A program made the translations under genes and the position numbers. A DNA stretch of 64,000 nucleotides from positions 62,001 through 126,000 of the forward strand of contig JAPTJF010000055.1 of NCBI GenBank assembly GCA_029339195.1. The letters are read 5' to 3'. Positions 14,788 through 18,053 of this stretch are shown here, piece by piece. Position 1 is the first letter of the stretch, and each line of letters begins with the position of its first letter. Below the pieces are notes generated by a model. The model was not told where the DNA came from. It worked only from the letters and a program-made list of their open reading frames with translations, and did not search any database. This DNA comes from Micractinium sp. NFX-FRZ. Taxonomy: Eukaryota > Chlorophyta > Trebouxiophyceae > Chlorellales > Chlorellaceae.

Positions 14788-17226
14788 TCAGCCGCCAAAG
14801 TGGGGCAGTGCCACGGCATCGGTGGCTGTCCCAGGTGTGAGCCCAGCCAGCCGTACATTGATGCCTCGGATGCTGGCCTCATCTGCACGCATGCGCAGCA
14901 GCACGTCCCTGCATGCAAGTGCGGCAAAACGGAGATAGACAAATGAGATCCACAACGACTGCTGGTTGGGCGGGAGGAAGCTGCTGCAGGCAGTCAGGCA
15001 GCCAGGCAGCTGGCAGGCGCATTACCTCAGGGGCATAACTAGCCCCGGCATGTGCAGCACAACAAGGCAGGCCGCCGGCCTGCCGTGCACGATGCCCACC
15101 TGACTGTGGCGCTGGGCAGCAGCGCATAGTAGGCGCGGGCAGCAGGCGGCGCAGCGTGGCGCTCCCAGCGTGGCAGGCGCCCCGAGGTGCTCAGCCTGCT
15201 CAGCATGTTTGACAGCCTGCGAGGTTCACAGGCAAAAGACGGGCGTGGCATCATGTTTTAACTACCTCAGGCTTGGTCCCGACAGCAGTAGGTCCGCACA
15301 CAGCATGCACAGCAGAACCCCGCACCACCAAGGGGGCCGCCACCGACGCAGCATGCGCAGTATGCATGAGGCACTGCAGGACCGCATGCCCTTGCTCATG
15401 TGGCTTACATCAGGTACGCACGTTCCCAAGGGCGCCGGAACGACGCCCATGCAGGCACCCACTGCCCCGCAACGTGCACAGCCCTCACCACCACATGTCC
15501 TCCTCAGCCCGGTACATTTGGTAGGCGTGGATGACGGAGGGGGCCAGCAGGTAGACCACGCAGCACTGCGAGAGACGGCAAATTGTATGGCATGTGTTCA
15601 TGAGCGATTGCCATGGCAGGGTCCATGGTTACAGGGCGGGCCGTGAGAGGGCAGGGCTGTGTGGCACAGGTGGGTCGAGACAAGTGGGGTGGCTGGGCGG
15701 GGCCCTCTGACGTGGGACTCCTGACCCACACGGTGGGGGCAAGGCAATGTAGCAAACCTGAGACAGCAGGTTGGCCGTCAGGAGCAGCAGAAACACTCGC
15801 TCAGGAAGGGAAGGAGGCTCCAGCTCGCTCCAGGCTGCACGGGCATGGTGAAGGCACAGTTGCGGCAGGTGCAGGCGCAGCCAGCGGGGTGAAGCGGCTA
15901 CGTGAAGCAGAGCGCCCCGAACCGCACCGGCTCAAGTCTCACTTCCAGCCCCTGCGCTAGGCAAGTCGACCCCCTGCCAGGGCCTTCAAGGCAAGCTGCG
16001 TGGCACATTGTTGCGGGCCACTCCTGGCGCAGTATCCAGTGGAGTGGAATGGGGCTCAAGTGCGAGCTCTGCCACCTCAGCCCAGCCGCCCTCTGCCCCA
16101 CCGCATACTCTGCCGCTAGGCAAGGCAACGCTGGTGCCCAGCGCACCCCAAGCTGGCGCTGCACACGAGAGCATCTCACCGGCGAGCTGGCAGCGGGCGC
16201 AGTCCACCTCCATCATCAGCGTGTGGCACCAGCCGTTGTCGGGCTTATTGAGCAGTACGGACCGCACGTGGTTCAGCAGTACGGCTGCCGGCGGGTGGGA
16301 GGGCGAGCGGGCGGGCGGGCAGGCAAGGGGGTGGGAGGCGAGTGTGACTGGCATGTGTGGGCGGGGTGTGCGTCAAGGCGGGATGGCGTGCCAGCTGGGT
16401 TTTATATATATGTAAATTCTCTGCAGGGCGCTGTCCTTTTGCAGAGCGACAGGTTCCAAGGCACCCTCTTCGCCTCGAGCGCCCGCTTGTGCCAGCCAGC
16501 CAGCCATGACAGCCAGGCCGCTGTGTGCCGGCATTGCTGGCGCTCCCAGTGCAGCACATGAGGTTTGACATCCCATCCTGCCCAGCAAGCCACCCACCCA
16601 CAAGCCGTCTACCCATTCACCCATTAACTCTGACCCCACCACCCATCCACACAACCACACTACCCATCCACAACAGTCTTCCACCCCTCTACCCACCCGA
16701 CAGCGCCGTGGCCTGGCCGTCGCAGTTGAGCATGCGGGCACGCTTTGCCAGCTGGCGCTCGCCGATGTCATGCTGGCGCCCAAAGGTTCCCGACAGCAGG
16801 CCCACCACGGTGCGCACTGCACCAGAGTGTTCAGGGCGTTCAGGATCAAACGAGAAGAGGAATATTCTGTGCATGCCGTGGTGAACCAGCAGAGGCACGT
16901 GGCCCCCCATGGCAGGTCTCAGGCCCCTCTGGGTGGAGGGCAGCACAGCCTGAGCAGCAAGCTTACTGGCAGCGGTCGGCAGGAGAGGCATAAATTGCAC
17001 CATGCAATGCCCGCAGCGGTGCAAGCACCGAAGGGCAGTCCGCCCTGTGCCCACGCCACGGTGCCCCGCCGAGGGGGGTGCCCGCTCGCCTGCCAGCAGC
17101 CACCACCAGGCCAGGCGCTCGGCCCACGTGCGGGGAAGCTGGTGCACGGGGCGCACGGATGCCAGGTACTCTTCTGTGTACACGTCCCGCTCCTGCATCA
17201 GGCCCACCACATCTAGGCATTCACGC
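14788..17226 (-). CDS. Alternative oxidase-like protein with degenerate di-iron site (5' end unresolved)
   Basis: Exons 16816-16697, 16284-16180, 15834-15758, 15565-15489, 15216-15100 and 14908-14788 join in perfect phase. An earlier exon starts at 17226 and probably ends near 17090; its donor and the true start were not settled. The joined protein follows mitochondrial AOX almost without gaps: RPVHQLP-x4-ERLAW, RARMLNC (AOX RAxMLET), NGWCHTLMMEVDCARCQL (AOX GGWIKALLEEAENERMHL), YLLAPSVIHAYQMYRAEED (AOX YLISP...YLEEEA), and YYALLPSATVRDVLLRMRADEA (AOX DYWRL...RADEAHH). Of the six iron ligands, Glu in LET is Asn, Glu and His in NERMH are Ala and Gln, and the final His is Ile. Only the LEEEA and RADEA Glu residues remain. 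AOX is a matrix-facing ubiquinol oxidase; this copy is predicted inactive as an oxidase. No stops or frameshifts are seen in the exons. Confidence 0.7.
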
Positions 17227-18053
17227 CTGCAGGGGATGCCGGAGAGGAGCGGGAGGGGAGGGGAGGGGAGGGGGCACACAGGGGCCCCGGCGTCGCTGGA
17301 TGCCGCTGACGGGGCGGTGCAAACCGAGCTGCCCGGCGTGCTGGCCGGCGTGTGGGAGCGTCTCGTGCTATGCAGTATAGCCTCTGCTAGCAGCTAGGCC
17401 CCGAGGGCCGAGGTCCGAGGCCCCGTGCCAGGGCACCTCAAGGAGGGGTGGGGCGCAACGTAGCCTGCAGCCAGAGTGTGCTTAGGTGGGGCTATGGCTT
17501 GTGGAAGATTGCAGCTACAAAGGAGCAGGAGGACGAAGAGGCTCTGGAAGAGGGTCCTAGACTTGAAGAGGCAGCTTGTACCGCCGTACCGCCCGGGCAC
17601 TCTAAAGCAGGCCTGCAAGTCGCTCAGCTTCAGTGAGCAGCATGCTGTTGCTGGCGCGCACTCTCGGAAAATGCCAACGGCACAACATGTTGCTGCCTCA
17701 ACTGCCCTTCCCTTGTCCTGCCGCATTCTGTGCGTGTGTGTAGATAAAAGCTGCTGGGTTGGGGTGGTGCGCATGCCCTTGACCACTGAAGAGCCAGTAC
17801 TCAACAAAAAGTACAAATGACTGATATACACATTTCAAATTTTAATATCAATCGCTCTGAGGAGGTGTGTGGGGGAAAGGCTGTGCCATGGGCAGGGGTT
17901 CAAATATATTACCGCTCATGGCTGGTAGGCAGGTCAAGATCTGAGGCACCAACAGGGTGGGATGGAGATAGCGCGCATTCCACAGCAGCAGGCTGTCACA
18001 GCACGGTGCCCGCAGGTGGGGGCAAAGAGGGGCAGCGCCCGAGGATTGGGCGC
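17227..18053. other. 5' region of the AOX-like gene and 3' flank of the hog gene
   Basis: It should hold the first exon(s) of the AOX-like gene. One candidate start, at about 17690 on the - strand, begins MLCRWHFPRVRA, which resembles a mitochondrial presequence, but I could not splice it in frame. A gggag repeat lies at 17249-17272. Nothing else is supported. Confidence 0.35.

Follow-up and report, generated by a model that had tools for sequence, protein, structure and literature searches.

An alternative oxidase-like protein of Micractinium with most iron ligands replaced: a member of an algal family and a candidate pseudo-oxidase

The DNA analyzed here, referred to as the window, is a stretch of 64,000 nucleotides from the green alga Micractinium sp. 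NFX-FRZ (contig JAPTJF010000055.1, C55:62001-126000, from a genome assembly of 66.07 Mb in 838 contigs). Its minus strand carries a gene encoding a relative of alternative oxidase (AOX) in which five of the six iron ligands of that enzyme are replaced. The original prediction, made from the sequence alone, placed spliced exons at 17226-14788, and the seven exons there join in phase, as it had claimed, into 250 residues without a stop. However, one 5′ exon had been missed (17495-17437). This exon was located through homology with P0002, a protein of Micractinium tetrahymenae, and brings the total to 270 residues. The canonical GT-AG ends that had been described were found in six of the seven introns, whereas the remaining intron (17089-16817) is GC-AG. 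The exons are listed below with the residue numbers of the 270-residue protein and with AOX position numbers.

17437..17495, minus strand: exon 1, with the conserved N-terminal motif AAGYVAPHPSLR; the ATA at 17495 aligns with the start Met of relatives; residues 1-20 of P0002 match 17495-17436 (E 3.6e-7)
17090..17226, minus strand: exon 2, N-terminal arm and helix 1; GC donor after the exon
16697..16816, minus strand: exon 3, Arg118 kept (residue 91), ligand E123 replaced by Asn (residue 96)
16180..16284, minus strand: exon 4, ligand E162 replaced by Ala (residue 135), H165 by Gln (residue 138)
15758..15834, minus strand: exon 5, carrying most of helix 4 and ending in the family-specific Gln at position 193 (residue 166)
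15489..15565, minus strand: exon 6, ligand E213 replaced by Ala (residue 186), preceded by a family-specific Arg at 212 (residue 185)
15100..15216, minus strand: exon 7, with a Tyr at position 247 (residue 222) that is specific to the family; matched by residues 192-230 of P0002
14788..14908, minus strand: exon 8, which includes the stop codon; Arg at 261 (residue 236) is family-specific, E266 (residue 241) is kept and H269 is replaced by Ile (residue 244)

All eight exons are matched by P0002, with E values from 3.6e-7 to 1.4e-17. Codon periodicity is strong: the difference in GC content between third and second codon positions (GC3-GC2) is 0.307, a value reached by none of 5000 shuffles. The GC content at codon positions 1-3 is 0.694, 0.494 and 0.801, respectively, and that of the introns of the gene is 0.648.

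The proposed relation to AOX was borne out by the Pfam AOX profile (PF01786), which matches the 250 residues with an E value of 7.1e-40 and a score of 137.4 bits over profile positions 1-215 of 216. Three matches were found in the PDB at E values up to 1, all of them to trypanosome alternative oxidase, the best with an E value of ~ 2e-19. The structure predicted for the window protein has the same fold as trypanosome AOX, the comparison that the original prediction had put forward as a check. Helices 1 and 4, which we take to be the membrane-binding helices of AOX, are more hydrophobic in four AOX-like proteins than in the two canonical ones looked at. Counts of N-terminal charge and hydrophobic moment did not separate AOX-like from canonical proteins. 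Four proteins, including a canonical AOX, went unmatched in NCBIfam, which is hence uninformative. A search of the PDB with the conserved N-terminal peptide identified no donor domain, the best match being a chance one to bacterial S4 (E 0.93). In the alga's own genome the peptide has four matches, all inside the two AOX-like genes, and no donor domain was found there.

The second AOX-like gene lies on contig C147 of the same genome, which also contains a PTOX gene on C67 and, on C111, the separate canonical AOX gene that had remained to be confirmed, with all six iron ligands. The canonical AOX shares 86% identity with an annotated protein of Micractinium sp. CCAP 211/92. The C147 protein is 39% identical to the window protein, and the two genes share three intron positions and phases (before AVLL/AVVN, after SQ/FQ and within EEDMW/EEQVF, compared by eye) that were not found in the C111 gene. 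The match on C67 (E 3.57) was doubtful at first and turned out to be PTOX. A weak match on C174 (E 0.46) was dismissed as chance, its best E value against any of three queries being 0.18.

Orthologues with the same substitutions, whose existence the original prediction had raised, were found by database search in related algae. The type-1 relatives are P0002, from M. tetrahymenae and with 70% identity, P0007 (Micractinium sp. CCAP 211/92), P0011 (Chlorella ohadii, a partial model) and P0004/P0010. The type-2 relatives are P0001 and P0003 (both Micractinium), P0005 (C. variabilis), P0008 (C. vulgaris) and P0006 (Parachlorella kessleri). The Pfam AOX cut-off was passed by all seven other members of the group that were tested. 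These searches scored ~ 8000 candidates sharing most words, and one with P0006 in the query did not return P0006; absence from other algae is therefore no evidence. Three of the proteins (P0005, P0008 and P0011) are named 'Ubiquinol oxidase' in UniRef despite missing most iron ligands, which is likely a misannotation.

The canonical sequences used for comparison came from the best 120 of 7755 hits, ranked by likeness to intact AOX and thus biased toward intact proteins. From these, 37 hand-picked sequences were aligned together with P0009. Two double-domain models, P0015 and P0018, were removed before the ligand table and the tree were made, and P0117 before the tree; with the C111 protein, the table has 37 canonical rows. 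The ligand counts exclude P0010 and P0012, gene models that read through introns, and the E213 exon is missing from P0007 and P0011, hence the counts out of nine at that site.

Six residues are given as the AOX iron ligands in two papers: E123, E162, H165, E213, E266 and H269 (PMC6213860; PMC9246349). E213 is the first Glu of LEEEA, placed by hand count in the trypanosome AOX sequence. At the six places the window protein has Asn, Ala, Gln, Ala, Glu and Ile. The original prediction correctly named the Asn at E123, the change of the NERMH Glu and His to Ala and Gln, and the Ile in place of the last His. However, five ligands are gone rather than four, because E213 is Ala, and instead of two ligand Glu residues only E266 is left; the neighboring Glu 214 and 215 are still present and neither is a ligand. 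Arg118 is kept and Thr219 is replaced by Trp. Tyr220, presumably an active-site residue of AOX, is replaced by Leu in the window protein and kept in three of the 11 AOX-like members (P0005, P0006 and P0008).

Across the group, E123, E162 and H269 are absent from all 11 AOX-like proteins compared and E213 from all nine that cover the site. E123 is replaced by Asn, Thr, Ala or, once, Asp; E162 by Val, Met, Leu or Ala; E213 by Ala; and H269 by Ile, Met or Leu. H165 is kept in all six type-2 proteins and is Gln in all five type-1 proteins. Thus, type-1 proteins covering all six ligands have five of them replaced and type-2 proteins four; the C147 protein, for example, has Asp, Val, His, Ala, Glu and Ile. 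D265, E266 and R118 are kept in 11/11 proteins and E215 in the 9/9 rows covering it. All six ligands are present in each of the 37 canonical green AOX sequences. Oxygen reduction by the AOX mechanism appears very unlikely.

The group is of AOX ancestry. In a maximum-likelihood tree the 11 AOX-like proteins form one group with 100% support, 1.65 substitutions per site from canonical AOX. Within it the type-1 proteins group at 100%, and the type-2 proteins without that of P. kessleri at 98% (support values were read from unrooted trees, as re-rooted drawings shift them). In a tree with PTOX added the same 11 proteins form one group at 100%, inside AOX, at a poorly supported place; the nearest canonical sequence there is P0052, at a support of 62% that is not trusted. 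Each of the 11 proteins matches the alga's own AOX (45-150 bits), and its own PTOX, pieced together by eye, is matched by none of them at E values up to 10.

The group has also acquired fixed residues of its own. Canonical AOX is at least 95% fixed at 67 positions; the canonical residue is never seen in the group at 25 of these, and 20 are unchanged in at least 90% of its members. Fourteen positions have a residue that is fixed to at least 90% in the group and rare in canonical AOX (10% or less); these include Gly126, Gln193, Arg212, Ala213, Tyr247 and Arg261, with the proviso that position numbers before 118 and after 213 may be off by one. The change of Leu212 to Arg occurs in 9/9 group rows and the Gln at position 193 in 11/11. 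These newly fixed residues argue for a new job rather than mere loss, with the caveat that shared descent along one long branch also yields shared residues.

A relative's copy is probably transcribed, as suggested by two sequence records. P0004 is a full 270-residue frame without introns on a contig of 1111 bases. P0010, on contigs of up to 111 kb, shares its first 140 residues but is interrupted at three points, and two of these breaks together with the end of the likeness coincide with the window-gene introns after residues 65, 105 and 140 (our own count). The two probably represent a spliced transcript beside its gene, since P0004 is intronless on a short contig. The gene models of M. tetrahymenae were built with RNA-seq hints, according to PMC12516953.

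We regard the window gene as probably encoding a neofunctionalized pseudo-oxidase, that is, an old AOX paralogue, one of two in Chlorellaceae, which lost the diiron site and was kept for a different job as a membrane-bound protein that works by binding. The conserved, non-catalytic AOX relative, rather than pseudogene, envisaged by the original prediction is supported by the profile match, the fold, the orthologues, the separate AOX and the change counts given below. The reading combines computed elements (AOX ancestry, an AOX-like predicted fold, ligand loss in every member compared, newly fixed residues, signs of continued constraint and hydrophobic membrane-side helices) with others that we infer (no oxygen reduction, placement on one membrane leaflet, dimerization and action by binding). 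Mitochondrial AOX duplicates would have lost the diiron site and then been retained for another function. The protein would reside on one leaflet of the membrane, either as a homodimer or with type 1 paired with type 2, and the conserved N-terminal arm would aid this arrangement. The quinol cavity would be remodeled: Arg118, which we take to be near the quinol site, is kept, Leu212, presumably part of a leucine gate, becomes Arg, position 193, which we assume lies in the same cavity, becomes Gln, Arg261 is added, and D265 and E266 are kept. Such a cavity would accommodate the head group of a quinone, or some other small ligand that is polar or anionic, with no redox reaction, and the role would be that of a quinone or ligand sensor, a carrier or a membrane scaffold rather than an oxidase. 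A narrower version, to which we give only tentative credence, is a Chlorellaceae family of iron-free membrane proteins derived from AOX, whose members would sense or handle quinones (or a different ligand) with no redox reaction; this quinone-pool sensor or carrier would have arisen from a terminal oxidase by removal of its metal and would then have been duplicated into two co-existing forms.

Several points weigh against the pseudo-oxidase reading. The alignments behind the fold models included canonical AOX rows, and the view of the ligand cavity leans largely on assumed structural roles of positions 118, 193 and 212. The Asp at E123 in the C147 protein is still a carboxylate. Type 2 including the P. 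kessleri protein is not a group in either tree, that protein being placed at 58% in one and elsewhere at 61% in the other, so that the two trees disagree on the branching order of type 1, type 2 and P. kessleri. The start of the window copy is uncertain. P0002 opens with MAPTKH, where the window copy has ATA-GCC-CCA. Upstream of this point the reading frame continues as far as a stop at 17837 and contains ATGs at 17726 and 17774, which lie 77 and 93 codons before the ATA. A non-AUG start, an upstream start, an assembly error or a recent start loss are possible explanations of the ATA; the question concerns the window copy and leaves the group of AOX-like proteins unaffected. Finally, the window branch in the tree is 0.27 long versus 0.19 from the same node to P0002, and GC3 is 0.80 in the window gene, 0.87 in the C147 gene and 0.93 in canonical AOX; the lower value could reflect weaker constraint or low expression.

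The ATA in place of the relatives' Met, the somewhat longer branch and a GC3 below that of the other two AOX-family genes measured would all suit a pseudogene decaying in this species, its start codon lost and its expression low or absent. We nonetheless consider decay quite improbable, as the gene has 270 codons without a stop, usable borders at all seven introns and all six of the residues named above as fixed in the group. The change counts of the window protein versus P0002 are even (24:22, 16:17 and 16:13 with three outgroups) and indicate no clear acceleration of the window copy. As to relaxed selection, which the original prediction had named, together with stops in sister strains, as evidence against itself, the counts are even, whereas the branch length and GC3 point the other way. 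Of 400 runs of a crude neutral simulation at ~ 69% identity, only 24 were stop-free, which is modest help to the view that the gene is under constraint. Moreover, the ligand losses are common to other members and are therefore older than any decay of the window copy.

The chief rival is a regulatory, prozyme-like partner that pairs with canonical AOX as a heterodimer and adjusts how active or stable that enzyme is, and we judge it unlikely. A canonical AOX is available in the same genome, and among six positions that we take to be the AOX dimer interface (138, 139, 143, 163, 166 and 187), H138 and R163 are kept in all 11 proteins and Q187 in all six of type 2. However, R143, fixed in 37/37 canonical rows, is Val or Leu in 11/11; L166 is changed in ten of the 11 and kept only in the window protein; Q187 is Thr or Ser in all five type-1 proteins; and position 139 is changed in eight of 11. 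These interface changes weaken the case for a dimer partner of active AOX, one of the three roles that the original prediction had suggested beside a regulator and a quinol-binding protein, as does the distance of 1.65 substitutions per site noted above. AOX itself behaves as a structural dimer in which the N-terminal arm takes part between monomers, according to PMC9246349, and this favors a partner role. It seems highly unlikely that the protein has remained an enzyme by means of another metal site, formed by E266, E214/E215 and further residues. The retention of D265 and E266 in every member, of E215 wherever covered and of H165 in type 2, as well as the Asp in C147, would be in keeping with such a site, but E123, E162, E213 and H269 are replaced across the group, and type 1 also has Gln at H165.

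Compared with AOX itself (PF01786; trypanosome AOX 3vv9 and 9kun), the group shares the whole-length Pfam match, the predicted fold, the hydrophobic helices 1 and 4 and the residues Arg118, H138, R163 and E266, but differs in its replaced ligands, its newly fixed residues and a GYIAPHPS-like N-terminal motif. PTOX is a related family with its own gene on C67; however, the 11 AOX-like proteins match the alga's own AOX and not its PTOX. Prozymes and pseudoenzymes include dead paralogues that activate a live enzyme. The group resembles them in the loss of catalytic residues, the retention of the predicted fold and the presence of a live paralogue in the same genome, but the presumed interface positions are partly changed. 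The wheat 'AOX-like' isoforms are described as members of the AOX family that miss one of four motifs, so that part of the six-residue iron site is absent, and their function is left open (PMC6213860). In contrast to this description, the algal group lacks none of the four helical regions, its ligands are substituted individually and several genera are involved. A literature search, with subscription papers and preprints mostly outside its reach, found no publication on these algal proteins or on the combination of one-by-one ligand loss, newly fixed residues and two paralogues. The AOX family is usually treated as having one function, and a match to AOX is read as 'ubiquinol oxidase'. If a function were found for the group, it would be a second use of the AOX fold, and the residues replaced in the group form a natural series at a diiron site that has been studied well.

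Some further features were observed in the other genes. In the canonical AOX gene on C111 (L005:4463-4855), the intron before the E213 exon holds three extra copies of the acceptor and exon start (QYLDEEAI, QYLEAAV and QYLEEEAV) at a spacing of 113-124 bases, upstream of the copy adopted in the gene model and possibly decoy or alternative exons. In the PTOX gene on C67 (L024:5658-5699, minus strand), the intact exon with the NExxH motif is preceded by an incomplete copy that looks decayed (LKCTFGGKWNEPHH). As in the C111 gene, the duplication is found at an exon that encodes an iron ligand. The double-domain models P0015 and P0018 are consecutively numbered gene models of Actinostola sp. cb2023, on a contig of equal length, each with a double AOX domain, and are possibly tandem copies fused by the gene predictor. 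Adjoining the AOX-like gene in the window is a convergent gene on the plus strand, from 12673 to ~ 14075, which seems to end in an intron-split MYND zinc finger (a weak Pfam match to its first part only, E 0.0021, under the cut-off).
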